Positions 1,591 through 21,904 of a stretch of DNA of 22,553 nt are shown one piece after another. Position numbers and translations under genes: made by a program. A model generated the notes under the pieces. It was not told the DNA's origin and did no database searches. It saw only the letters and a program-made list of their open reading frames with translations. The first letter of the stretch is position 1. Every line of letters begins with the position of its first letter. Source of the stretch: a virus. The stretch is taken from positions 1-22,553 of the IMG/VR virus record IMGVR_UViG_3300037585_003458; one strand, given 5' to 3'.

Positions 1591-1816
1591 AGAGCTAATC
1601 AAAGTAGCTAAGGAAGCTATTGTAGATTCCGATGACGATATATCAGCGGATAGGCTTAAGAACGCTGCAGCTACAAAGAAGTTAGCTATATTCGATGCTT
1701 TTGAAATACTAAACCGAATTGAGGAAGAGGAGAGAGTTATTAAAGATCTAGAGAAATCGAAGCAAGATCTAAATAAACCTAAATTCCAAGGGTTCGCAGA
1801 AGGGAGGAGTAAATAA
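1535..1816 (+). CDS. Small helical protein; terminase small subunit candidate
   Basis: The 93-residue product starts at the ATG at 1535; an in-frame TTG at 1529 would add two residues. The gene overlaps the end of the preceding gene by 56 bases, but the early sequence (KSIIQAGHIAVEELIKVAKE) looks like a genuine conserved helix, so the overlap is probably real. The middle (ADRLKNAAATKKLAIFDAFE) and the acidic stretch EILNRIEEEERVIKDLEK predict further helices. The tail ends in PKFQGFAEGRSK. A small, all-helical protein placed directly before the large terminase is the usual position for a small terminase subunit, which recognises phage DNA. No helix-turn-helix can be read with certainty, so the role is inferred from context. 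Its TAA overlaps the terminase ATG. Confidence 0.65.
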   Translation: MNIKETKKSIIQAGHIAVEELIKVAKEAIVDSDDDISADRLKNAAATKKLAIFDAFEILNRIEEEERVIKDLEKSKQDLNKPKFQGFAEGRSK

Positions 1817-4044
1817 TGTACGAACAAACGCTTTATAAAATAGTAGAACCAGTTAAGCTTACCACTATCAAGAGATTGAATAAGGGTAAGAAGTGGAAAT
1901 ATGGCTACGATAAGGAAAGTGATATTGTAGTTGTATCTAAGAGCGGTGAGATAGGTGAGATAGTAGAGATACAAGGTTTGAGAGTAGCTTTACCTAAAGT
2001 ACCTAAAGAAGTTTTTAGTTGTTCTAAAACGAAGAAAGAACAGAAGTGGAGAAGGTTTGAACCTAACTCAGCTTTTAATAAGATTAAAACTAGGTTTGAC
2101 TGGGATACTTACCCTAAAGAATTTAAAGAGTTACATTATAAATACATAGACGAGGAGTTTAAGAGAAGAGATAATGGCTTCTGGTTTATGAACAATGGTG
2201 ATCCGACTTGGATTCCTGGTAGTTACTATATGTATCTGCAATGGAGTAAGATAGATGTTGGAGCTCCAGACTTTAGAGAAGCCAATAGGCTTTTCTTTAT
2301 ATTTTGGGAGGCTTGTAAAGCTGATCAACGTTGCTATGGTATGTGTTATCTAAAGAATAGACGTTCAGGTTTTTCTTTCATGAGTTCGGCTGAAACCGTT
2401 AATTTAGCTACCTTAGCAAGTGATAGTAGATTTGGGGTGTTATCCAAGAGTGGTGGTGATGCGAAGAAAATGTTTACAGATAAAATAGTACCAATAAGTA
2501 TTAATTATCCTTTCTTTTTCAAACCAATCCAAGACGGTATGGATCGTCCGAAGTCAGAGCTAGCTTATCGTATCCCAGCTAAGAAGTTTACCCGTAGAAA
2601 AATGGGGGTTCACGAAGAACAAGACGACATGGAAGGTCTTGATACTACTATTGACTGGAAGAACACTGGTGATAACAGTTATGATGGGGAAAAGCTTTCT
2701 CTATTAGTCCACGATGAGAGTGGCAAGTGGGAGAGGCCAGACAATATCCTTAATAACTGGAGGGTTACTAAAACCTGTTTGAGGTTAGGTGGTAGAATAG
2801 TTGGTAAGTGCATGATGGGGTCAACCTCTAATGCACTAGACAAAGGTGGTGATAACTTTAAGAAACTGTATGGAGACTCAGATGTTACTAAACGAAATAG
2901 GAATGGACAAACAAAGTCTGGTTTATATTCTTTGTTTATCCCAATGGAATGGAACTATGAAGGATTTATTGACCAGTTCGGAGTTCCAGTCTTTGATAAT
3001 CCAAGTGATGATGTTTACGGACCACACGGTGAATTAATAGATATAGGTGTTGTAGATTACTGGGAGAATGAAGCTGAAGGTCTGAGAGACGACCAAGACG
3101 GATTAAACGAATTCTACAGACAATTCCCAAGAACAGAAGAGCACGCATTTAGAGATGAGACAAAGAATAGTTTGTTTAATCTTATAAAAATATACGAGCA
3201 GATAGATTACAATGAGGGTAACAGGAACTCCTCGGTCTTAACAACCGGTAACTTCCAATGGGAGAATGGGGTTAAGGATACTAGAGTTACTTTCAACCCG
3301 GACCCTAATGGTAGATTTAAAGTAAGTTGGGTTCCTAATAGAGGGATGCAAAATAACGTTGTACTAAAGAATGGAGTTAAATACCCTGGAAACGAGCACG
3401 TTGGTGCGTTTGGTTGTGATAGCTACGACATTAGTGGTACTGTTGATGGTAAAGGCTCTAAAGGAGCGTTACATGGATTAACTAAGTTCAGTATGGAAGA
3501 TGCCCCAGCTAACACGTTCTTTTTAGAATATGTAGCTAGACCTCAGACTGCTGAGATCTTCTTTGAAGATGTCCTAATGGCGTTAGTATTTTATGGGATG
3601 CCTATATTAGCAGAGAACAACAAACCTCGTCTATTGTACTATTTACGTAGAAGAGGTTATAGAGGTTTCAGCATGAACCGCCCTGACAAGCTGTGGAATA
3701 AACTATCTGTAACCGAAAGAGAGGTAGGTGGTATGCCGAACTCTAGTGAGGATATAAAACAAGCTCACGCCGCAGCTATTGAAATGTATATCAATGATCA
3801 TGTTGGTCATTTAGAAGATGGTACTTACGGTACTGTGTATTTCAATGAAACGCTGAACGATTGGAGTAAATTTAATATAAACAAAAGAACCAAGTATGAT
3901 GCTGCTATAAGTTCTGGTTTAGCTATCATGGCTTGTAATAGACACATGTACCGACCAAACCCAGAGGTAAATAAACAACCATTAGATATAAGTATATCTA
4001 AGTATACTAACACCGGATTTAATTCAACAATAATTAAAAAGTAA
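1816..4044 (+). CDS. terL: Terminase large subunit (ATPase and nuclease)
   Basis: This 742-residue protein packages DNA into the prohead. The ATPase domain shows a Walker A of the lambda type, KNRRSGFS at residues 180-187, where the Lys comes early and there is no GKT. Walker B is LLVHDE at 296-301, with D300 and the catalytic E301. A coupling-motif candidate is GSTSN at 335-339. The C-terminal nuclease has a probable first metal ligand in GCDSYD (D535), acidic residues near 584-585 in EIFFEDVL and at E600, and a last Asp in KYDAAISSGLA (D695), spaced as in the RNase H-like fold. An N-terminal extension of about 170 residues precedes Walker A. GGAGG lies 7 bases before the start, inside the upstream gene. 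The start overlaps the upstream stop (TAATG), and the portal gene follows after 3 bases. Confidence 0.93.
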   Translation: MYEQTLYKIVEPVKLTTIKRLNKGKKWKYGYDKESDIVVVSKSGEIGEIVEIQGLRVALPKVPKEVFSCSKTKKEQKWRRFEPNSAFNKIKTRFDWDTYPKEFKELHYKYIDEEFKRRDNGFWFMNNGDPTWIPGSYYMYLQWSKIDVGAPDFREANRLFFIFWEACKADQRCYGMCYLKNRRSGFSFMSSAETVNLATLASDSRFGVLSKSGGDAKKMFTDKIVPISINYPFFFKPIQDGMDRPKSELAYRIPAKKFTRRKMGVHEEQDDMEGLDTTIDWKNTGDNSYDGEKLSLLVHDESGKWERPDNILNNWRVTKTCLRLGGRIVGKCMMGSTSNALDKGGDNFKKLYGDSDVTKRNRNGQTKSGLYSLFIPMEWNYEGFIDQFGVPVFDNPSDDVYGPHGELIDIGVVDYWENEAEGLRDDQDGLNEFYRQFPRTEEHAFRDETKNSLFNLIKIYEQIDYNEGNRNSSVLTTGNFQWENGVKDTRVTFNPDPNGRFKVSWVPNRGMQNNVVLKNGVKYPGNEHVGAFGCDSYDISGTVDGKGSKGALHGLTKFSMEDAPANTFFLEYVARPQTAEIFFEDVLMALVFYGMPILAENNKPRLLYYLRRRGYRGFSMNRPDKLWNKLSVTEREVGGMPNSSEDIKQAHAAAIEMYINDHVGHLEDGTYGTVYFNETLNDWSKFNINKRTKYDAAISSGLAIMACNRHMYRPNPEVNKQPLDISISKYTNTGFNSTIIKK

Positions 4045-4047
4045 GTT

Positions 4048-6438
4048 ATGGCAGAGTCTGCGATAAGGAATTTCCCTTCACAAGCAGTTAGTGATTTAGA
4101 AAAGATGACCCAAGAATATGGGTTGAAGGTAGCTAGGGCTATTGAACATGAATGGTTCTCTGGAGCTACATCTAAGTATAGTGGTAATACAAATAACTTC
4201 CACAAGTTGAGGCTATATGCTAGAGGAGAGCAGCCGATACAAAAATATAAAAACGAGTTATCTATAAACGGTGACTTAAGCTACTTAAACTTAGATTGGA
4301 AACCTGTACCCATTGTACCTAAATTCGTGGACATAGTAGTTAACGGTATGTCCCAAAGAGCTTACGACGTCAAGGCTTACTCTCAAGATTCATATGGGGT
4401 TAGTAAGAGGACTGAGTATATGGAATCAATGTTAAAGGACATTAGGTCCAAGGAGTATAATGACATGGTCCAAGAGGGTTTTGGTATGGACATTTACGAA
4501 AACCAAAAAGAAACCCTACCAGATACTGAGGAGGAACTAGCTCTTCATATGCAGTTGAATTATAAACAAGCCGTTGAGTTAGCCGAAGAACAAGCTATCA
4601 ACGTTCTAATGGAAGGTAGTAAATTCGACCTTATAAAGAAGAGGTCCTTATATGATTTAACCACTATAGGTATTGGAGCCGTTAAAACTACCTTCGACTG
4701 GAGTGATGGAGCTAAAGTGCAATATGTAGACCCAGCTAACCTAGTCTACTCATATACTGAATCCCCATACTTTGAGGATATATATTATGTTGGAGAGGTT
4801 AAGGAAGTCCCAGTTAATGAGTTGGTTAAAGAATTTCCCAACTTGTCCGAATCTGAGATATACGATATCGTAGAGGGATCTAAGAGCTCTGCTAGACTCG
4901 TTAATAACTCCAACGGGGATAAGAATAAGATTAGTGTGCTATACTTCAATTATAAGACACACAAGAATAATACATACAAAATAAAGGAAACTGGTACTGG
5001 CGCTAGTAAAGTTATAGAAAAGGATGATACCTTCAACCCACCAACTGACATGGATGGTAACTATTCGAAACTTGAAAGGGTAATGGAGTGTTTGTACGAA
5101 GGTGTACTAGTACTAGGTACTGATAAGCTATTGAAGTGGGAGATGGCTGAGAATATGTTACGTAGCAAATCCAACTTTGATAAAGTGAAAATGAATTATA
5201 GTATCGTTGCACCTAGAATGTACAACGGTAAGATAGAATCTATAGTTAGTAGAATAACAGGGTTTGCCGATATGATCCAGTTGACTCACTTAAAGCTTCA
5301 GCAAGTTCTATCTCGCATGGTTCCAGATGGAGTTTATTTAGACGCTGATGGGTTAGCTGAAATAGATCTGGGTAATGGTACAAACTATTCTCCGCAGGAA
5401 GCTTTAAATATGTTCTTCCAGACAGGTTCCGTTATTGGTAGGAGTTTTACATCTGAAGGGGATATGAACCCTGGTAAAGTGCCTATTCAGCAAATACAAA
5501 ACGGTTCGGGTAGTAACAAACTTCAAAGCTTGATACAAACCTATAATTACTACCTACAAATGATCCGTGATGTCACCGGGCTTAATGAAGCTAGAGATGC
5601 GTCAACACCAGATAAGAACGCTTTAGTCGGTATTCAAAAGTTAGCAGCAGCTAATTCTAACACAGCAACTAGGCACGTATTGCAGTCTATGCTATTATTA
5701 GCATCAGAATCGGCGGAAGCTTTATCACTAAGAATATCAGACATTATAGAATACTCTCCAACTAAAGAGGCTTTTATCCAATCTATTGGAGCTCATAATG
5801 TAGCTACATTAGAAGAGATGAAAGAGTTACATTTATACGATTTTGGTATATTTATAGAGTTGATGCCTGATGAAGAGGAGAAGCAAATACTAGAGAATAA
5901 TATTCAGATAGCATTATCACAACAGTTGATAGACTTAGATGATGCGATTGATTTGCGTGATGTTAGAAACATTAAACTAGCCAATCAACTTCTTAAAATA
6001 AAGAGAAAGAAAAAGCTTGAGAGAGATCAGAAGATGCAACAGCAAAATATTCAAGCTCAATCTCAGGCTAATCAAGAAGCTCAACAAGCAGCTGCTCAAG
6101 CTGAGGTTCAAAAGAACCAAGCTAAGACACAGTCTGATGCTCAGTTAGAGCAAACTAAAACTCAGTTGAAGATTCAATACTTACAGCAAGAGGCTCAGGT
6201 TAAGAAAGAATTAATGCAGTTAGAGTTTGAGTTAAACTCTAGATTACAATCTGGAGAAAGAGAGCTAAAAGACAGGCAAGAGGCTATGAGAGAGGATAGG
6301 AAAGATTCTCGAGTAGATAGGCAAGCTCAACATCAGAAAGACTTAGCGGATAGAAAAAACCAGGGTGAATCACTTAAAAAGTTTGAATCATCAGGTAATG
6401 ATATAGTAACAGGTGGAGCAGGATTAGACCAATTCTAA
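4048..6438 (+). CDS. Portal protein
   Basis: The 796-residue product sits between the terminase and the scaffold, as portals do. The core runs to about residue 640. It contains the segment DVTGLNEARDASTPDKNALV (from about 507), followed by GIQKLAAANSNTATRHVLQS, which resembles the conserved clip/stem region of large podovirus portals, where a TG-N-x-R-D pattern is common. From about 640 to 780 the protein is a long, highly charged, Gln-rich helix (KIKRKKKLERDQKMQQQN and onward), likely an extended coiled coil or barrel inside the capsid. Portals form a dodecameric ring at one capsid vertex through which DNA enters and leaves. The length fits the large portals of crAss-like and marine phages. 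The last residues (VTGGAGLDQF) form a flexible tip. Confidence 0.9.
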   Translation: MAESAIRNFPSQAVSDLEKMTQEYGLKVARAIEHEWFSGATSKYSGNTNNFHKLRLYARGEQPIQKYKNELSINGDLSYLNLDWKPVPIVPKFVDIVVNGMSQRAYDVKAYSQDSYGVSKRTEYMESMLKDIRSKEYNDMVQEGFGMDIYENQKETLPDTEEELALHMQLNYKQAVELAEEQAINVLMEGSKFDLIKKRSLYDLTTIGIGAVKTTFDWSDGAKVQYVDPANLVYSYTESPYFEDIYYVGEVKEVPVNELVKEFPNLSESEIYDIVEGSKSSARLVNNSNGDKNKISVLYFNYKTHKNNTYKIKETGTGASKVIEKDDTFNPPTDMDGNYSKLERVMECLYEGVLVLGTDKLLKWEMAENMLRSKSNFDKVKMNYSIVAPRMYNGKIESIVSRITGFADMIQLTHLKLQQVLSRMVPDGVYLDADGLAEIDLGNGTNYSPQEALNMFFQTGSVIGRSFTSEGDMNPGKVPIQQIQNGSGSNKLQSLIQTYNYYLQMIRDVTGLNEARDASTPDKNALVGIQKLAAANSNTATRHVLQSMLLLASESAEALSLRISDIIEYSPTKEAFIQSIGAHNVATLEEMKELHLYDFGIFIELMPDEEEKQILENNIQIALSQQLIDLDDAIDLRDVRNIKLANQLLKIKRKKKLERDQKMQQQNIQAQSQANQEAQQAAAQAEVQKNQAKTQSDAQLEQTKTQLKIQYLQQEAQVKKELMQLEFELNSRLQSGERELKDRQEAMREDRKDSRVDRQAQHQKDLADRKNQGESLKKFESSGNDIVTGGAGLDQF

Positions 6439-6470: not shown

Positions 6471-7640
6471 ATGGCAGAAAAATTAGAGAACGTAGTTGAA
6501 GAAACTACAGAACAAGTTGTCGAAAACACAATCGACGAATCAAAATTTGAAAGTGCTGGAGATGATAGCGTTATTAAAGTAGATTTAAACAAACCACCAA
6601 CCAATGAAACTGAAGAGACAGAAGCTGACCCAGCAGGAGTGGTGGGAAGCGATGAAGACACCGGAACCTCACAAGAACAAGAAGAGGTACAACCGGAAGG
6701 AGAAGTACAAGAAACAGAGTTACCAGTACTAGAAGAAGTAACCGATGAAGAAGTCGAAGCTGTAGAAGAACAAGTTGAAGAAGCTATAGCAAAAGCAGAA
6801 GCTACTGGGAAACCACTACCAGAGAATATACAGAAGTTAGTTGACTTCATGGAAGACACTGGTGGAGATTTAAACGACTACGTAAATCTAAATAGAGATA
6901 TATCTAAATTAGACGACTCTGAAGTACTAGACGAGTACTATAGAAAAACTAAATCTCATTTATCCGCTGAAGAGAGAAACTTTTTGTTGGAAGATAAATA
7001 CGGTTTCGATGAGGACATGGATGATGAGCGTACAATAAGATCAAAGAAAATCGCTTTGAAAGAGCAAGTTGCTGAAGCGAAAACCTACTTAGACGGGCAA
7101 AAGTCTAAGTATTACGAAGAGATTAAAGCTGGAAGTAAGCTCACAAGTGAGCAGCAGAAAGCCATGGATTTCTTCGATCGTTACAATAAGGAATCTGAAG
7201 AGACTAAAAAGCTAACAGAAACTAACAAACAAGTTTTTCAACAGAAAACTGATAATCTATTCAACGACAAGTTCAAAGGTTTTGACTACAACGTCGGAGA
7301 TAAGAGATACAGGTTTAATGTGAAAAACAAGGATGACGTTAAGACAAACCAGAGCGACCTGAATAATTTTGTGCAAAAGTTTTTGGATAAGAACAATCAG
7401 ATGAGCGATGCTAAAGGTTATCACAAGTCTTTATTTACGGCAATGAACGCTGATGCTGTTGCTCAACATTTCTATGAGCAAGGGAAAGCAGATGCAATCA
7501 AAGATACTGTAGCTAAAGGTAAGAACATTAACGTTGACCCTAGAGGTACTCACGGAAGTGAACAAACTAGTGGGACAAAGTTTAGAGTGTTAGGTGAAGG
7601 TTCGGATGATTTCAAATTCAAAATTAGAAAAAAGAAATAA
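6471..7640 (+). CDS. Capsid scaffolding protein
   Basis: The 389-residue protein lies between portal and capsid genes, the standard scaffold position. Residues about 1-115 are strongly acidic and poor in structure, dominated by Glu, Asp and Thr (for example EEVTDEEVEAVEEQVEEA). The middle (about 140-330) is helical and charged. The last residues are basic (DDFKFKIRKKK). This polarity, an acidic body with a basic C-terminal tip, matches scaffolds of podoviruses such as T7 gp9 and P22 gp8, whose basic C-terminus binds the coat protein. The protein would direct prohead shape and then leave or be degraded. No protease motif is visible, so it is not a protease-scaffold fusion. The sequence itself is not one I recognise; the call rests on position and composition. 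Confidence 0.75.
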   Translation: MAEKLENVVEETTEQVVENTIDESKFESAGDDSVIKVDLNKPPTNETEETEADPAGVVGSDEDTGTSQEQEEVQPEGEVQETELPVLEEVTDEEVEAVEEQVEEAIAKAEATGKPLPENIQKLVDFMEDTGGDLNDYVNLNRDISKLDDSEVLDEYYRKTKSHLSAEERNFLLEDKYGFDEDMDDERTIRSKKIALKEQVAEAKTYLDGQKSKYYEEIKAGSKLTSEQQKAMDFFDRYNKESEETKKLTETNKQVFQQKTDNLFNDKFKGFDYNVGDKRYRFNVKNKDDVKTNQSDLNNFVQKFLDKNNQMSDAKGYHKSLFTAMNADAVAQHFYEQGKADAIKDTVAKGKNINVDPRGTHGSEQTSGTKFRVLGEGSDDFKFKIRKKK

Positions 7641-7662: not shown

Positions 7663-9102
7663 ATGGCAGTAACAGGCGCAGACCAGCCAAGAGCTGGTGC
7701 GGTTCAGCAAGTATTAGCTGACAATTATTTAGACTTCTCAGGTGGTTGGGCTCAACAATACCTACCAGACCTAATGGAGAAAGAAGCTGAGGTTTTCGGA
7801 AAGAGAACTATTTCAGGATTTTTATCTCAAGTAGGTGCTGAAGAAGCAATGGCTGCTGATCAAGTTGTTTGGTCAGAGCAAGGTAGATTACACTTATCGT
7901 ACAAAGGGAAAGTTGATACCGCAACAGCGAGTACAATAGAAATAGAAGACGATATCGATGGAAAAGACGTTGGTACTGATCACGGTGTTAGAGTTGGTGA
8001 TACTATTATAGTAGCATCTGCAACGTTAACTAAAAAGTGTTATGTATCAGCAATTGATGTTAATAGTGCTGGTGCACAGCAGGCAACTCGCACAGGAATT
8101 ATTACAGCTATACCTTACGGTGGAGCACACTTGAGTAACCTTTCTTTTGGAGATGACAACCCAGTTACCATTATGGTTTATGGTTCTGAATACAGTAAAG
8201 GTACTGAAGGTAGAGCTGGTGCTAACAAGCCTTCTTTCACTAGATTTACTAATAAGCCTATTATCCTTAAAGATAAGTACGAGATCTCTGGATCTGACGC
8301 TTCTCAAATTGGTTGGGTTGAAGTTTCGGGTGAAGAAGGACAGAATGGCTACTTGTGGTACTTGAAAGCTTCAGGTGATACTAAATCTCGTTTCTCAGAT
8401 TACTGTGAAATGTCTTTAGTTGAGGCTGAAAAAGCAGCTGATGCTTCTACTATACTAGGTGGAGCTAATGATTTGGTAGGTACTGAAGGTTTATTCGCAG
8501 CTTTAGAAGCTAGAGGTAATACTTCTACTGGTATCTCTGGCGTTAATGCAGCAACTGACTTGGCTGAATTTGATGCTTTATTAGCAGAGTTCGACAAGCA
8601 AGGTGCTATTGAAGAGAACATGATGTTCATTAACAGAGCTACTGCTCTTGCTATGGATGACATGCTTGCTTCTATGAATTCTTACGGAGCTGGTGGTACT
8701 TCTTACGGAGTATTCGACAACGACGAAGATATGGCTTTAAATTTAGGTTTCTCTGGTTTCAGAAGAGGTTCTTACGACTTCTACAAATCTGACTGGAAGT
8801 ACTTAAACGACTTAGCTACTCGTGGTGGTATTAACGCTAGAAACGTAGCAGGCGCTATTCGCGGTGTTGTTGTTCCAGCTGGTGTATCATCTGTTTACGA
8901 TGAAAACTTAGGTAAGAATCTTAAACGTCCGTTCTTACACGTACGTTATAGAGCTTCTCAAACTGAGTCTCGTAAAATGAAAACTTGGACTACTGGTTCT
9001 GTTGGAGCGGTTACATCGGATTTAGATGCGATGGAAATGCACTTCTTATCAGAAAGATGTTTAGTGGTACAAGGGGCTAACAACTTCTGCTTATTAAACT
9101 AA
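7663..9102 (+). CDS. Major capsid protein
   Basis: The 479-residue product follows the scaffold and is followed at once by a strong terminator, as expected for the most abundant virion protein. The N-terminus (DNYLDFSGGWAQQYLPDLME, then EAEVFGKRTISGFLSQ) and the C-terminus (DAMEMHFLSERCLVVQGANN) look like a capsid family common in uncultured marine phages, as I recall it. Long tailed-phage capsid proteins share the HK97 fold. A beta-rich stretch at about 83-175 could be an extended loop or an added surface domain. No cleavable N-terminal delta domain or protease gene is seen, consistent with a separate scaffold. Codons look smooth and highly biased toward A/T-ending forms (GCT, GGT, TCT), which fits high expression. 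The gene starts 22 bases after the scaffold stop. Confidence 0.88.
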   Translation: MAVTGADQPRAGAVQQVLADNYLDFSGGWAQQYLPDLMEKEAEVFGKRTISGFLSQVGAEEAMAADQVVWSEQGRLHLSYKGKVDTATASTIEIEDDIDGKDVGTDHGVRVGDTIIVASATLTKKCYVSAIDVNSAGAQQATRTGIITAIPYGGAHLSNLSFGDDNPVTIMVYGSEYSKGTEGRAGANKPSFTRFTNKPIILKDKYEISGSDASQIGWVEVSGEEGQNGYLWYLKASGDTKSRFSDYCEMSLVEAEKAADASTILGGANDLVGTEGLFAALEARGNTSTGISGVNAATDLAEFDALLAEFDKQGAIEENMMFINRATALAMDDMLASMNSYGAGGTSYGVFDNDEDMALNLGFSGFRRGSYDFYKSDWKYLNDLATRGGINARNVAGAIRGVVVPAGVSSVYDENLGKNLKRPFLHVRYRASQTESRKMKTWTTGSVGAVTSDLDAMEMHFLSERCLVVQGANNFCLLN

Positions 9103-9164: not shown

Positions 9165-10010
9165 ATGGCTAAAAAGCAAACAAAGAAAGCTGCAGTAAAA
9201 GAAACTGTAGTCGAGCAAGAGGTGGTTGAAGTAATGGAGCAACCAATTATTGAAGTACCTGAGGTAGAAGTGATGGAAAGACCTACTCAAAATAAGTGGG
9301 AAGTTAAGGATAGAGTTTATCACTTAAAAGGTAAAACACCTTTATCTAGTCTCATAAAGGGTAGTAACATTTACTACTTTGACGAGGAGAAGGGTTACGA
9401 AAGAGAGTTGAAATACTGTTCTAATCAAAGAACATGTTTCGTAGATGAGATGGTTGGTGACCAAAGATTAGAGCATATTATTTTTAGAAACGGAACTTTA
9501 GTAGTTCCTAAAAATAAAACCGTTCTACAGAAGTTACTATCATTATACCATCCAATGAAAGATGTTATATATGAAGAGGACAAACCCATAGTTCAAGCAG
9601 CTAATGAAGTAGCTTGGATCGAACTAGAGATTGAAGCTTTAAATGCTGCTCAAAATCTAGACATCGACATGGCTGAAGCCGTAATGCGCGTAGAACTTGG
9701 TTCTAAGGTATCAGAGATGAGTTCTAAGGAACTTAAAAGAGATTTATTATTATACGCTAAAAGAAACCCTGGTTTGTTCTTAGAGTTAGTTAATGACGAT
9801 AATGTACAACTAAGGAATTTTGGTATTAGAGCAACTGAACTAAACATTATAAAGTTATCATCAGATCAAAGACACTTTATGTGGGGATCTAACGATAGAA
9901 AACTTATGACAGTTCCGTTTGACGAACACCCATACTCCGCACTTGCACAGTGGTTTAAAACTGACGAAGGCATGGAAGTATACACTAATATTGAGAAGCG
10001 GTTATCATAA
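9165..10010 (+). CDS. Conserved phage protein of unknown function, post-capsid
   Basis: The 281-residue protein begins with a low-complexity Lys/Glu/Val-rich segment (about 1-42, with repeated VVE and EVE motifs). A compact domain follows: NKWEVKDRVYHLKGKTPLSS, then YYFDEEKGYERELKYC, and KTVLQKLLSLYHP. A helical half comes next (about 145-240) with GSKVSEMSSKELKRDLLLYA and LFLELVNDDNVQLRNFGIRA. The end, MTVPFDEHPYSALAQWFKTD, appears well conserved in related marine phages from memory. I know of no assigned role. Its position between the capsid gene and a virion-protein cassette suggests a head or neck component. There is no signal peptide or membrane segment. The 3' end is built into a weak hairpin. 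Confidence 0.75.
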   Translation: MAKKQTKKAAVKETVVEQEVVEVMEQPIIEVPEVEVMERPTQNKWEVKDRVYHLKGKTPLSSLIKGSNIYYFDEEKGYERELKYCSNQRTCFVDEMVGDQRLEHIIFRNGTLVVPKNKTVLQKLLSLYHPMKDVIYEEDKPIVQAANEVAWIELEIEALNAAQNLDIDMAEAVMRVELGSKVSEMSSKELKRDLLLYAKRNPGLFLELVNDDNVQLRNFGIRATELNIIKLSSDQRHFMWGSNDRKLMTVPFDEHPYSALAQWFKTDEGMEVYTNIEKRLS

Positions 10011-10020
10011 CCGTTTTCTT
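9998..10020 (+). terminator. Weak terminator-like hairpin overlapping the stop codon
   Basis: Bases 9998-10004 pair with 10008-10014 (7 bp including one G-U, loop TCA), followed by the T-rich run TTTCTT. The TAA stop of the 9165-10010 gene lies within the hairpin. The stem is short and the T-run is interrupted, so termination would be partial. Confidence 0.45.
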
Positions 10021-10101
10021 TCCAATTAATATCACGAAACCCTAACCCTTAAACTTTAAACCTTAATTCACAAACAATTATTAATTATTTAAAAAAGACA
10101 A
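10021..10101 (+). promoter_or_regulatory. Intergenic region likely carrying the promoter of the paralogue cassette
   Basis: This is one of the two largest gene-free stretches in the window. It contains a C/A/T-only run at 10037-10070 with imperfect iterations of CCCTAA and CCTTAA, including TTAAACTTTAAA at 10049-10060, shared with the capsid leader. An A/T-rich run leads into the ATG at 10102. No clear bacterial -10/-35 or Bacteroidota TAnnTTTG box can be read. Its position between a hairpin and a discrete cassette makes a promoter likely, but the exact element is not identified. Confidence 0.3.
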
Positions 10102-10404
10102 ATGAAAAAAGAAACGTATTTGTTATTTCAAAAAACAAACGCAAAAACCCACATGGTACCAGCTTCTAACTTTTTAGGAGTAGACGCCCATTCTGACACT
10201 TCGACTCTTGAAGTTAGTTTTCTAAAAGAAACTGGAGCGCTTGACGCTGCAAGAATTACTTTAGGGTTTGTTGGAGACATAAAAGATGCTTGCGAGGCTT
10301 TAGCTGGTGCTATGGCTGGTCAAAACAGAGGTTTAATAACGGTAGCCAATGATTTGACTGGGGAATATTTATATCCGTTTAACGTTGTAGACAATATAGA
10401 ATAA
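10102..10404 (+). CDS. Small virion-type protein, paralogue 1 of 3
   Basis: The 100-residue protein starts KKETYLLFQKTNAKTHMVPA and ends ITVANDLTGEYLYPFNVVDN. It shares its overall plan with the next two genes. An opening beta strand (YLLF, YLYF, FLYF) is followed by a P-x-S or P-x-x-x segment (VPASNFLG). A central strand precedes a helix (DIKDACEALAGAMAGQN), and then comes a hydrophobic strand before an aspartate (GLITVANDL, compare PFVVAADL and GFIVVADR). I do not recognise the family by name. Size, copy number, cassette position after the capsid genes and lack of membrane or enzyme motifs suggest a head decoration or other minor virion protein. It would be translated from the region after the hairpin at 9998-10020. 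Confidence 0.7.
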   Translation: MKKETYLLFQKTNAKTHMVPASNFLGVDAHSDTSTLEVSFLKETGALDAARITLGFVGDIKDACEALAGAMAGQNRGLITVANDLTGEYLYPFNVVDNIE

Positions 10405-10736
10405 TGGAAAAGTACTTATATTTTACATCAACAACAGGTGATATTAATGCCACTCAAGAGGTAGCTTTATATCCAACCTCAGCACTTAGAGCTTTTGAAA
10501 CTCAAAGCGCTACTGAAACTAATATATATGTAGCACCAAGAGATGGGAGTGGAGAAACTGAAGATGTTATAAGATTGACTCACGCTGATGGAGCCCATAA
10601 AAGTGTTATGTACAGCTTAGTTCAATTAATTAATGCTGATAAGAATAAGTCACCATTCGTGGTGGCTGCTGACTTAAAGAACGGGGTGTTTAACATAGAA
10701 GGTGTTACTAGTGTGGCCATTACTTCTGCAGATTAA
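10404..10736 (+). CDS. Small virion-type protein, paralogue 2 of 3
   Basis: The 110-residue protein overlaps the preceding stop (TAATG) and so is coupled to paralogue 1. It opens with EKYLYFTSTTGDIN and has ALYPTSALRAF, which aligns with VPASNFLG of paralogue 1 and AVYPFSVTKTRV of paralogue 3. The middle reads EDVIRLTHADGAHKSVMYSL, against YDHITFTHSDDNGVALRKIS in paralogue 3. The last part, SPFVVAADLKNGVFNIEG, corresponds to GFIVVADRYNDIVAPELL. The second and third paralogues are clearly closer to each other than to the first. Function is unknown; a repeated small structural protein is most likely. Confidence 0.72.
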   Translation: MEKYLYFTSTTGDINATQEVALYPTSALRAFETQSATETNIYVAPRDGSGETEDVIRLTHADGAHKSVMYSLVQLINADKNKSPFVVAADLKNGVFNIEGVTSVAITSAD

Positions 10737-10741
10737 TTATT

Positions 10742-11392
10742 ATGAAGACAAATTTTTTATACTTTAAAGAAAAAGGCTATCAGCAATTTACGGCTACTGC
10801 TGCTCAAACTACTTTCGCGATAAACGGTGATAACGAGTGGGATTCTGACGTAGCAGCTGATACAGAGGTTAAAGTTTCAGTGACTTTTCTAGAAGCTCAA
10901 GCAGCTAAAGTGGGTAGTCATTATAGTGGTGGTTCGGTGGATGCTGGTGAGACAGTTGTAGTTCATGCTGATGGTAAAGCGCTTTCTGGAAGCAATATTG
11001 TAATTGATAATATCAGTGATACAACTTACGGTATTACTTTATCTGCTGGTGATATAGTGACTATAGAGAGAATACCTATTCCTTTGAAGCACGAAGCTTG
11101 CCTTAGAGCAGATAGGTTTCTCGCTGTATACCCTTTCTCTGTAACGAAAACTAGAGTAAGCTTTAAATCTGCTGAAGGAACTAATGGGACTTATGATCAT
11201 ATAACTTTCACTCACAGTGATGATAATGGAGTTGCTTTAAGAAAAATAAGTAATTATTTTGCTGAAGTAATGTCTGGTCAAGCTGCTAATAAAGACGGGT
11301 TTATAGTCGTAGCTGATAGATACAACGATATAGTTGCTCCAGAGCTTTTAGGTATTGGGATAACTAAAATGCAGGTTCTTGTCCAAGACTAA
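10742..11392 (+). CDS. Paralogue 3 of 3 with inserted fibre-like beta domain
   Basis: The 216-residue protein opens with NFLYFKEKGY, like its two neighbours. It then carries about 100 extra residues (about 15-112) before returning to the shared fold (AVYPFSVTKTRVSFKSAEG to the end). The insert begins QQFTATAAQTTFAI and ends DTTYGITLSAGDIVTIERI. This matches the common phage beta module in which F-x-A-T-A-x-Q-T-x-F leads to a loop and then to a L-SAGD-V-I strand, found in fibre and decoration proteins. In the middle are DAGETVVVHADGKALSGSN and IVIDNIS. The result looks like a capsid- or neck-bound base with a displayed extra domain. It lies 5 bases after paralogue 2, with ATT-ATG at the start, and is followed by a strong terminator. 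Confidence 0.72.
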   Translation: MKTNFLYFKEKGYQQFTATAAQTTFAINGDNEWDSDVAADTEVKVSVTFLEAQAAKVGSHYSGGSVDAGETVVVHADGKALSGSNIVIDNISDTTYGITLSAGDIVTIERIPIPLKHEACLRADRFLAVYPFSVTKTRVSFKSAEGTNGTYDHITFTHSDDNGVALRKISNYFAEVMSGQAANKDGFIVVADRYNDIVAPELLGIGITKMQVLVQD

Positions 11393-11412
11393 CGCTAATT
11401 AACTTAATGCTA

Positions 11413-11443
11413 ATAGCCATCCTTTCGGGTGGCTATTTTTTTT
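11413..11443 (+). terminator. Intrinsic terminator closing the paralogue cassette
   Basis: A 10-bp stem (11413-11422 with 11427-11436, one G-U pair) with a TTTC loop (11423-11426) is followed by an unbroken T-run to 11443. It lies 20 bases after the third paralogue and would end that transcript. Confidence 0.93.
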
Positions 11444-11500
11444 ACCCTATACTAACTCCTCGCTTTAATATGTAACTATAATATTGTAAAATAGAATGCA
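11444..11500 (+). promoter_or_regulatory. Promoter candidate region for the neck/tail genes
   Basis: These 57 bases separate a strong terminator from the next gene, so new transcription is expected to begin here unless readthrough serves the tail genes. The stretch ACTATAATATTGTAAAATAG at 11475-11494 contains TATAAT and the near-match TAATATTG to the Bacteroidota -7 box TAnnTTTG. No convincing upstream -33/-35 partner is seen, so the exact site is uncertain. Confidence 0.35.
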
Positions 11501-11674
11501 ATGAAATCAAGAGGACTAGGAGATTCAATAGAGAAATTCACAAGGTTTACAGGTGTAAAAACATTAGTTGATGTAGTCACTAAGGAAAAGGACTGTGGAT
11601 GTAATAAAAGGAAGAATTGGTTGAATAAACAATTCCCTTATAAATTAAAAGAAGATGGCAGTAAGCATAGATAA
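11501..11674 (+). CDS. Short Cys-containing conserved phage protein
   Basis: This is a 57-residue gene. It reads MKSRGLGDSIEKFTRFTGVK, then a helix-like middle, then DCGCNKRKNWLNKQFPYK and a short tail. The G-L-G-D start, the C-G-C pair followed by basic residues, and L-N-K-x-F-P-Y are features I recall from short proteins that recur next to tail or neck genes in Bacteroidota and marine phages. Their function is unknown to me. CGC could bind a metal or form a disulfide, but with only two cysteines a metal site would need another chain. It overlaps the next gene by 20 bases (11655-11674), so the two are tightly linked in translation. The motif pattern makes it a real gene despite its size. Confidence 0.72.
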   Translation: MKSRGLGDSIEKFTRFTGVKTLVDVVTKEKDCGCNKRKNWLNKQFPYKLKEDGSKHR

Positions 11675-12785
11675 CGTTTACCAGAAAGTTTTAGCTTTAG
11701 CTAATAAGGAACAGAGAGGTTATATAACCCCTCAGGAGTTTAACCTATTAGCTGATAAAGCTCAGAACGATATTTTCGAAATGTACTTTCACGAGTATAA
11801 GACATCACTGTTAAGCCCGGGTAATCAGAGTAAGACAGCTGGCGATATAGATATGCTTCGTGAAAAGATCTCTATACATAGGGTTGTAGGTGGCTCTATA
11901 GCTATTGATGGTACTTTAGCAGGGGGTAGTGGTATTCATTGGTTAGAGAGTGTGTACAAAGCCTCTACAGATGCGACTCGAACTCTTACTTTTACACCTC
12001 ACGGCGGAAGTGGTATAGCCTCTTCTCCATCAGCTTCTACAGATGTTACTCAACTTCGGTTAAGAGGAAGTTATCCTGCTGGTTATGGTAATGATGCTAT
12101 TACTACTTGGACTGTATACCTGTATCACAATGATGTAACCGTTCATAGTAACATCGCCACAAATGTGGACCATGGTGTCGTTTTATCAGTGAATCCTGGT
12201 GCAACTGCTGCTGCAGTGGCAGGCGTTATAACTAACACTATAAATAACACTTCACCATTCCATACAGCCACGCTCAACACTACAACTAACGAAATAACTA
12301 TTACTTATAAATCAGAGTTTCCCTCTACGTTGTCCGCAGAGGATTGCCACAACTGGGTGGGATCAGACCCTACTGTGACTATATCTACAACAGATGCTGA
12401 AACTATGGCTGTCTACGAAGAAGTCGATAGAGACGACTGGATATATGTAACTGGTACTTCAAAGCTTAAACCATCGTCAAGTAGGCCTGTATACTACAGG
12501 AAAACCCCAGAATCAGTTGGGCTTTACCCAACGCCTAGCACTACGATATCTTGTGACTATATAGAAAAGCCCACTAAACCAAAGTGGACATATGTTGTAA
12601 TAAACGACAAAGCATTGTATAATGCTGGTGCAAGTGATAAACAAGATTTTGAATTGCATGCCTCTGAAGAAAGCACATTGACAAATAAAATACTTGAGTT
12701 AGCTGGTATTGTTATAAACAAGCCTGGTCTATCTGAAGTTATACTTAGAAACGAAGCCATTAAGGAGGCAAACGAAAATAAATAA
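11655..12785 (+). CDS. Head-tail adaptor/neck protein with beta-rich insertion
   Basis: The 376-residue protein has an N-terminal helical domain (about 1-75) with SIDNVYQKVLALANKEQRGY followed by ITPQEFNLLADKAQNDIFEM. It has a C-terminal part (about 255-376) with SSRPVYYRKTPESVGLYP, then KPTKPKWTYVVINDKALYN and DFELHASEESTLTNKILELA. I recall these two parts as nearly contiguous in a family common in marine phages, placed just before a gp11-like protein. Between them, at about 82-248, lies a Gly/Ser/Thr-rich beta region. It includes TAAAVAGVITNTINNTSPF and NTTTNEITITYKSEFPS, like a module found in tail and fibre proteins. The likely role is a neck ring between portal and nozzle. The call depends on context and remembered similarity. 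Confidence 0.65.
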   Translation: MAVSIDNVYQKVLALANKEQRGYITPQEFNLLADKAQNDIFEMYFHEYKTSLLSPGNQSKTAGDIDMLREKISIHRVVGGSIAIDGTLAGGSGIHWLESVYKASTDATRTLTFTPHGGSGIASSPSASTDVTQLRLRGSYPAGYGNDAITTWTVYLYHNDVTVHSNIATNVDHGVVLSVNPGATAAAVAGVITNTINNTSPFHTATLNTTTNEITITYKSEFPSTLSAEDCHNWVGSDPTVTISTTDAETMAVYEEVDRDDWIYVTGTSKLKPSSSRPVYYRKTPESVGLYPTPSTTISCDYIEKPTKPKWTYVVINDKALYNAGASDKQDFELHASEESTLTNKILELAGIVINKPGLSEVILRNEAIKEANENK

Positions 12786-12787
12786 TT

Positions 12788-13681
12788 ATGGGGTTATTAG
12801 ATAATACTACACAAGAATCTTATTACGGTGGTACGGATAAAGGTAATTACCAATTCGTATCGCTAGATGATATTATAAGTTCCTTTATGGTTGTATACGT
12901 AGGTGAGAATAAAATACTATCTAAAATTAGTAGAACTGATGTACAATTTCATGGGATGAGAGCTATTCAAGAATTATCGTACGATGTTCTACGTTCTCAC
13001 AAAGCTTTTGAACAGGAGGTTCCTTCTACTTTGGTTATGCCTTTACCACAGGATTATGTTAACTACACTAAGATAGTTAGGATAGATTCTAAGGGTATTG
13101 AGAAACCTTTATATCCTACTGGTAAAACTTCAAACCCATTTCCTATAAAACAAAGTGGGGATAATTATGTCTTTGATGGTGATAGTTTAAACAGTCAAAG
13201 TGATGCTACAGCTTCAGACCCTCACACATCAGACACTCGTAGTAGATTCGGTACTATAGAAGCTAACAATATAGATTATGACTACGATGATGGAGGTTTG
13301 ATTGATGAGCATTTCCAAGGTCGTAGATATGGATTAGACCCTCAACACGCTCAGGTAAACGGTACTTTCTACATAGACAACTCAACTGGGTATATTCACT
13401 TTGGATCTGACTTAGCTGGGGAAACTATAATATTAAAATATATCAGTGATGGTCTAGGTACTGATACTGAGATGGTGGTTCACAAATTCTGTGAGGAAGC
13501 TATATATAAACATATCATGTACGGTTTAGTATCTGGAAGATCTAATATGCCTGAGTATGTGGTACAAAGATTTAAGAAAGAAAAGTTTGCAGAAACTAGG
13601 AAAGCTAAGATTAGACTTTCGAATATTAAAATGGAGGAGTTCACTCAAGTATTGAGAGGTCTTGGTAAACCAATTAAGTAG
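12788..13681 (+). CDS. Tail tube/adaptor protein, T7 gp11-like position
   Basis: The 297-residue protein comes two bases after the neck gene and just before the nozzle-type gene, the place of T7 gp11 (tail adaptor). Residues about 20-115 carry a helix-rich segment (FVSLDDIISSFMVVYVGENK, then MRAIQELSYDVLRSHKAFEQ) and a strand pair (STLVMPLPQDYVNYTKIVRI). A variable Asp/Ser-rich loop lies at about 125-205. The end has VHKFCEEAIYKHIMYGLVSG and a basic helix before IRLSNIKMEEFTQVLRGLGK. A similar C-terminal basic helix plus R-G-x-x-K-x-I-K is present in adaptor proteins of crAss-like and marine podoviruses as I recall them. It probably forms a dodecameric ring under the portal. Confidence 0.7.
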   Translation: MGLLDNTTQESYYGGTDKGNYQFVSLDDIISSFMVVYVGENKILSKISRTDVQFHGMRAIQELSYDVLRSHKAFEQEVPSTLVMPLPQDYVNYTKIVRIDSKGIEKPLYPTGKTSNPFPIKQSGDNYVFDGDSLNSQSDATASDPHTSDTRSRFGTIEANNIDYDYDDGGLIDEHFQGRRYGLDPQHAQVNGTFYIDNSTGYIHFGSDLAGETIILKYISDGLGTDTEMVVHKFCEEAIYKHIMYGLVSGRSNMPEYVVQRFKKEKFAETRKAKIRLSNIKMEEFTQVLRGLGKPIK

Positions 13682-21418: not shown

Positions 21419-21904
21419 ATGCCTAAGGATGAATTATCAAAAGCCGAGAATAGAGAGATAGCTCTAAACACTAGGGAGCAAATACAGGGGTTACAAAACT
21501 TCTTAGTTGAGAATGCAGACGAGGTAAATACAGTCACGCATCAAAACTCTGAGATATTCCCACTAGAACATACATTCGCTGACGGTATTTATGTTAGGCA
21601 AATGACAATGAATAAAGACAGTTTAGTCGTCGGAGCTATACATAATCATTTACATGTGTGGTTTTTATTGTCTGGGTGTATCACTGTTGCTACAGAGGAA
21701 GAGAGTTTAGAATACATAGCACCTTGTTATGTATTGGCAACACCCGGAACTAAGAGGGTTATATATGCAAACGAAGATTCAGTGTTTGTAAACGTTCACA
21801 AGAACCCTACAAATTGTCAGGATATAGAAGAACTAGAGGGAGAAATTGTCTCAGCAACATTCGAGGAGTATGAAGAATATATTAATAAAATAAATAAGAT
21901 ATGA
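21419..21904 (+). CDS. Cupin-fold protein
   Basis: The 161-residue protein has a helical start (about 5-36) and then a small beta barrel. IYVRQMTMNKDSLVVGAIHN leads into HNHLHVWFLLSGCITV, the cupin-1 region, with H75, H77 and H79 as possible metal ligands and G86 at the turn. The strand EYIAPCYVLATPGTKRVIYA follows, and then SVFVNVHKN, the cupin-2 region, with H127. The canonical Glu of motif 1 is not evident. Short cupins of this kind (G-x-I-H before a G-x-x-x-V strand, then P-G-T-K-R-V) recur in marine phage late operons as I recall, with no proven role. It may be a metal-binding structural or assembly protein, or an enzyme acting on a small sugar. Its stop overlaps the next start (ATGA). 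Confidence 0.75.
   Translation: MPKDELSKAENREIALNTREQIQGLQNFLVENADEVNTVTHQNSEIFPLEHTFADGIYVRQMTMNKDSLVVGAIHNHLHVWFLLSGCITVATEEESLEYIAPCYVLATPGTKRVIYANEDSVFVNVHKNPTNCQDIEELEGEIVSATFEEYEEYINKINKI

Follow-up and report, generated by a model that had tools for sequence, protein, structure and literature searches.

Capsid decoration proteins of the lambda gpD and T4 Soc/Hoc type are small, accessory and variable between close relatives, and exchangeable fibre or receptor-binding modules are replaced as blocks between conserved flanks, with domain insertions and C-terminal extensions. Here we describe a cassette of three small genes in a 22.5 kb virus record from a podovirus-like phage (the whole stretch of 22,553 nt is referred to as the window). 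Like decoration proteins, the cassette proteins are small and vary between close relatives, and in the window they are encoded close to the capsid gene; the main locus of their family, however, lies elsewhere. No match to a known decoration protein was obtained in Pfam, in PHROGs or in the PDB, whether by sequence or by fold. The family resembles fibre modules in its block replacement between conserved flanks, its insertions and its C-terminal extensions, but its members are mostly of 100–230 aa, and we recognized neither a fibre nor an adhesin domain in them. The same predicted fold as that of the second cassette protein (copy 2) was found in BFVD models of the marine virus proteins A0A218MM61, A0A218MM55 and A0A218MM70 and of the NIOZ-UU157 protein A0A7S9STV3 (Foldseek E-values of 6e-7 to 3e-5, TM 0.76–0.78), which differ in showing only 15–23 % sequence identity, in having no function or name and, in some cases, in being multi-domain proteins of 400–550 aa. 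In total, 13 BFVD models matched at E < 1e-3, and those with descriptions were uncharacterized proteins of uncultured or marine viruses; for the A0A218MM entries, closely spaced accession numbers suggest that their source genomes also carry several copies each.

The structural genes of the window were named from gene order and annotated homologues, and comprise a large terminase (1816–4044), a portal (4048–6438) and a putative scaffold (6471–7640); these are followed by the capsid protein gene (7663–9102), the adaptor (11655–12785) and a ring gene (12788–13681). The capsid protein shares 41–47 % identity with its counterparts in Elemovirus, Maribacter phage Panino and ctfjg026, and 36 % with those in Callevirus phi38:1 and Calle; all five named or isolated relatives are without the cassette family, including phi38:1, despite its capsid homology. 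Amongst uncultured phages of marine Bacteroidetes, Nishimura et al. (2017; PMC5332604) described a GroEL-carrying ‘group 2’ that includes Cellulophaga phage phi38:1, in passages that mention structural-protein and GroEL homologues, not the cassette family. As its capsid is homologous to that of phi38:1 and its relatives carry GroEL, the window appears to belong to this group. A contig with a capsid protein 74 % identical to the window's is binned in a Sphingobacteriales MAG, which we treat as a host lead only; the window phage is marine and probably infects Bacteroidota. Elsewhere in the structural region, the adaptor is 376 aa long compared with ∼240 aa in most relatives and has an apparent beta-rich insert, and the ring protein has a large insert in many relatives and none in the window. 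A gene specifying 161 aa at 21419–21904 matches the PHROGs entries ‘short tail fiber protein’ (E 3e-28) and ‘tail fiber adhesin’ (E 1e-23).

The cassette lies on the plus strand between a conserved upstream gene of PHROG 34748 (unknown function; 9165–10010, plus strand) and a 57-aa small gene (11501–11674, plus strand) that precedes the adaptor. Gene 1 (10102–10404; 100 aa, pI 4.8) overlaps gene 2 (10404–10736; 110 aa) by 1 nt in the sequence TAATG, and a 5-nt gap separates gene 2 from gene 3 (10742–11392; 216 aa). On the same strand, a hairpin spans the upstream gene's stop codon (9995–10020, with CGGTTATCATAACCG at about 9999–10013; MFE −10.7 kcal/mol, z = −3.7 versus shuffles). All four phages with a capsid-side cassette have the same hairpin core, GAAGCGGTTATCATAACCG, whilst relatives with an empty site have a different hairpin there. 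An AT-rich leader (10021–10101, plus strand), partly conserved amongst the capsid-side cassette phages, precedes gene 1; in searching for a sigma-70-like promoter before the cassette we found promoter-like matches to be no commoner than expected by chance. The cassette is closed by an intrinsic terminator on the plus strand (11412–11445), consisting of AATAGCCATCCTTTCGGGTGGCTATT and a T-run at 11412–11437, that is likewise kept in 4/4 of these phages, with little variation between them in either hairpin or terminator. The initial annotation had described three adjacent genes between a hairpin with an intergenic region and a terminator, and the coordinates, hairpin and terminator were all confirmed.

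In pairwise comparison, copy 2 aligned with the C-terminal portion of copy 3 at E = 6e-6 (z = 9 versus 1000 shuffles), and copy 1 had no significant match to either of the others. Iterative profile searching united all three at E < 1e-13 (about 1e-15 to 1e-24 for copy 1). The final profile, used to scan 3193 ORFs from IMG/VR relatives, returned 163 members, whilst 15,965 shuffled ORFs gave no match even at E ≤ 10. The members are characterized by the motif string [YF]-L-[YF]-F; P-[AV]-S-x-[FL]-x-G; F; D-x-[VI]-x-L-T; a helix; and a closing [IV]-V-[VI]-x-D, the D of which is present in 94 % of them; each window gene matches both the profile and the motif string. Thus, the claim of three paralogues with common motifs was borne out, and the motifs were sharpened on the 163 members. 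A closer relationship between copies 2 and 3 than of either to copy 1, as had also been proposed, is hinted at by BLAST, but the profile-aligned identities (18 % for copies 1 and 2, 28 % for copies 1 and 3, and 22 % for copies 2 and 3) and the tree distances (3.05, 3.79 and 3.26, respectively) disagree with it. Overlooked in the initial annotation was that copy 3 consists of the same domain with a beta-rich insert of ∼108 residues after the first strand (about residues 10–117; 10769–11092, plus strand). Judging from these sequence comparisons, the cassette encodes one small protein in three versions that diverged long ago.

We found no match to the family in Pfam, PHROG or PDB sequences, with the family profile performing at chance level against the latter; tblastn searches of 50,697 phage records with the individual proteins and with the family consensus returned nothing meaningful, and we found no description of the family in the literature. 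A match of copy 3 to PHROG 673, ‘head scaffolding protein’ (E 9e-4), was rejected, as none of the 19 other members of its class match that entry. The AlphaFold models of copy 2 (mean pLDDT 90.4) and copy 3 (85.8) both begin with a strand, a loop or insert and a second strand, and continue with a short turn-helix, three strands, a helix and two final strands. The folds of the cassette proteins had been expected to superimpose, and for copies 2 and 3 no mismatch appeared, since their secondary structures correspond element by element. When the short class was compared with the long class, profile to profile, the probability was 99.4 % over their common part. A PDB fold search with these two models yielded no match; kinase- and PH-type hits were weak and partial, and were rejected, and the gene 3 insert gave only weak fold matches. 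A pI below 5 is predicted for 88 % of the family members; no transmembrane-like stretch is present in the three window proteins, and no candidate set of conserved catalytic residues was seen in the family.

In order to place the family in related genomes, we used loci gathered from IMG/VR (the L- and G-numbered records) via the capsid, the winged-helix gene or, in a few cases, a family member; GroES-site loci were obtained by anchoring on the neighbouring winged-helix gene. All 163 members are found at two genome sites, or at a contig edge adjoining one of them. The usual site (site A) has the order GroEL–GroES–family–putative winged-helix gene, with a phage GroES, and the family is present at 74 of 81 such loci (some are duplicate records and a few were fetched with a family-member query). 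One short copy is carried by 35 of these 81 loci, two by 12, a short–short–long arrangement by 17 and three short copies by three; a further five have one C-terminally extended copy and two an extended copy plus a short one, and of the seven with no member above threshold, three show a borderline diverged member. The proposed search for one-, two- and multi-copy versions in relatives returned one to five copies per locus, most commonly one.

The capsid-side site is used by the window's clade only, and 57 of the 61 capsid-fetched relatives in which it is visible have nothing between the upstream gene and the adaptor. Three copies stand there in the window, L030 (the same record as L185) and L036, and also in L019, where the contig ends before the adaptor. 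In L030, a record of 39 kb, the winged-helix gene begins 2 bp after GroES and the cassette is present only at the capsid side; this closed GroES site, together with the cassette behind the capsid gene, indicates relocation. Conversely, six records (G007, G020, G022, G026, G027 and G029) have a filled GroES site and a capsid side without a member, although in G020 only the gene after the capsid is visible and the adaptor lies outside the contig. Both sites were occupied in none of the genomes examined, and those checked had one cluster each. Three partial relatives of 29–50 kb have no recognized member, and the family may therefore be dispensable.

On a tree of 144 domains, the genes of three-copy cassettes fell into separate classes according to their position as first, second or third, with 15, 16 and 20 members (T1, T2 and T3; supports of 0.77, 0.92 and 0.94), and each window gene groups with its own positional orthologues. 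These classes are retained together and in order across many phages; five of the three-copy cassettes have a copy 1, a copy 2 or both that group outside the main classes. The classes are old, and the dN/dS values of orthologous pairs range from 0.03 to 0.33 in all three, by which measure they are under purifying selection. The window, L030 and L036 group together in their terminase and ring proteins, with identities within the group of 85–90 % (terminase) and 72–76 % (ring), compared with 71–83 % and 42–61 % between the window and the other phages. The cassettes nevertheless differ: for genes 1, 2 and 3, respectively, that of the window is closest to L161 (45, 58 and 53 % identity), that of L030 to L186 (86, 73 and 73 %) and that of L019 to L113 (71, 85 and 82 %). 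The L019 and L030 cassettes are only 34, 58 and 36 % identical to each other, yet their capsid genes are sisters at 88 % identity. At the nucleotide level, identity to the window is 70–100 % in blocks where the upstream gene ends and 72–90 % just past the cassette (L030 and L036), falling inside the adaptor gene; thus, the flanks of the capsid-side site are conserved and the cassettes between them differ. As phages with sister capsids carry cassettes of different clades between conserved flanks, the cassette is exchanged as a unit, and we conclude that the block was relocated in an ancestor of the window's clade and later swapped between phages en bloc. The suggestion that the three genes are one self-contained unit is supported by this behaviour of a short, a short and a long, insert-bearing class, and the case for it is better than first put. 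The capsid gene itself also appears to have been exchanged between relatives, as the L036 and L078 capsids are 91 % identical, compared with 66 % for portal and 63 % for scaffold.

Our preferred reading, to which we assign a probability of roughly 45 %, is that the cassette specifies three differentiated, small, acidic, beta-rich proteins serving as accessory, probably outward-facing parts of the virion, of a decoration or head-fibre-like kind. The proteins would sit in the particle, one version would serve in single-copy phages in place of the three found in three-copy phages, the copy 3 insert and the C-terminal extensions of other members would form exposed domains, and their exchange would be favoured by an outward-facing position. 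A role at the virion surface is favoured by the small size and acidity of the proteins, which show neither transmembrane-like stretches nor a conserved catalytic set, by the insert and extensions, by a weak virion-protein match, by the location of the capsid-side site within the head-gene block (most relatives carry the family beside GroES instead) and by an annotated neighbour in phi38:1. Specifically, some members (L100, L135 and L177) carry a fused C-terminal domain that resembles neighbouring stand-alone proteins (L130:332–742, L160:3687–4091, L169:2464–2871 and L172:3232–3711) with the pattern ‘...DSGK.F.L....ITLP...GW.C.FIVG...’. One stand-alone copy matches PHROG 8295, ‘virion structural protein’, at E 9e-4, and of two others tested one scored 0.07 and one had no match, such that the link of this domain to virion proteins is weak. 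In phi38:1, the gene adjoining the winged-helix homologue is annotated ‘structural protein’ (gp077); considered as a distant family homologue, gp077 was rejected, having no detectable homology.

Speaking against a virion role are the main site beside GroES, outside the head-gene block, and the lack of the family in cultured relatives. An intracellular role is the strongest rival, in which the proteins would work with the phage GroEL/GroES as assembly aids or clients, or would be small counter-defence proteins exchanged because their hosts vary. The commonest position, directly after GroES, fits this, and small size, acidity, variable copy number, block exchange and absence from some relatives would also suit counter-defence genes; we nevertheless consider it rather unlikely, as in the window's clade the cassette has left the GroES site for the head-gene block, one fold is found family-wide and at only two sites, unlike typical counter-defence islands, and some members are fused to the domain with the weak virion-protein match. 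That the proteins are tail, neck or fibre-base subunits, with versions at different positions and the long one bearing an appendage-like insert, is quite unlikely. In the window the cassette does precede the adaptor and ring genes, but most relatives are empty at that site; similarly, block exchange resembles that of fibres and the best, albeit weak, fold matches of copy 3 include the LME-1 portal–tail chain (9efk, E 8e-3, TM 0.24) and 5e7t, a phage baseplate protein, but at TM of about 0.2 these are of no use as homology.

The initial annotation suggested, as examples, a mixed-subunit ring or quasi-equivalent sites, and took the position after the capsid gene as an argument; read strictly, all three paralogues would then be obligatory, unlike subunits of one assembly. 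Retention of the three classes together and in order is consistent with such an arrangement; however, unlike subunits do not always co-occur, as single-copy loci are the commonest state at site A, 12 more loci there have two copies, and copies 1 and/or 2 stray from the main classes in five cassettes, making an obligatory three-part assembly very improbable. The position argument is also weakened, since the location is derived by relocation in one clade and the same site is empty in nearly all close relatives; capsid-side placement alone therefore cannot assign the proteins to the head.

On the preferred reading of surface accessories, a broader picture, which we put forward tentatively and as somewhat doubtful, is of a multi-version subunit system in marine Bacteroidota phages, with one fold in one to five copies that is moved en bloc between two sites. 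If true, inserts and C-terminal domains would be borne by some copies, and one recombination step would change the set displayed at the particle surface. The family is widespread in an uncultured marine phage group, yet has no Pfam or PHROGs entry and no recognizable solved fold. Its contrasts (one, two or three versions, usual or moved site, and swapped blocks) make it suited to asking why diverged versions persist and, if these are virion proteins, they would extend the modular exchange of particle accessories beyond tail fibres.

Other small genes were also observed in relatives. Runs of these with unlike sequences (L104:5568–6431, L099:255–2124, L140:4944–5712 and L101:2692–4101) have a common N-terminal leader, M[AG]FK[MLQ]K/G, with variants such as MAFKMKG, MGFKLG and MAFKQKNNPF, which might act as a particle-targeting or packaging signal. 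One leader protein, encoded on the terminase side of the genome (L001:4040–4459, L141:4943–5362 and L164:2235–2648), contains a conserved NHEMRHATDM, an HExxH-like motif suggesting a small zinc-metallopeptidase-like protein.
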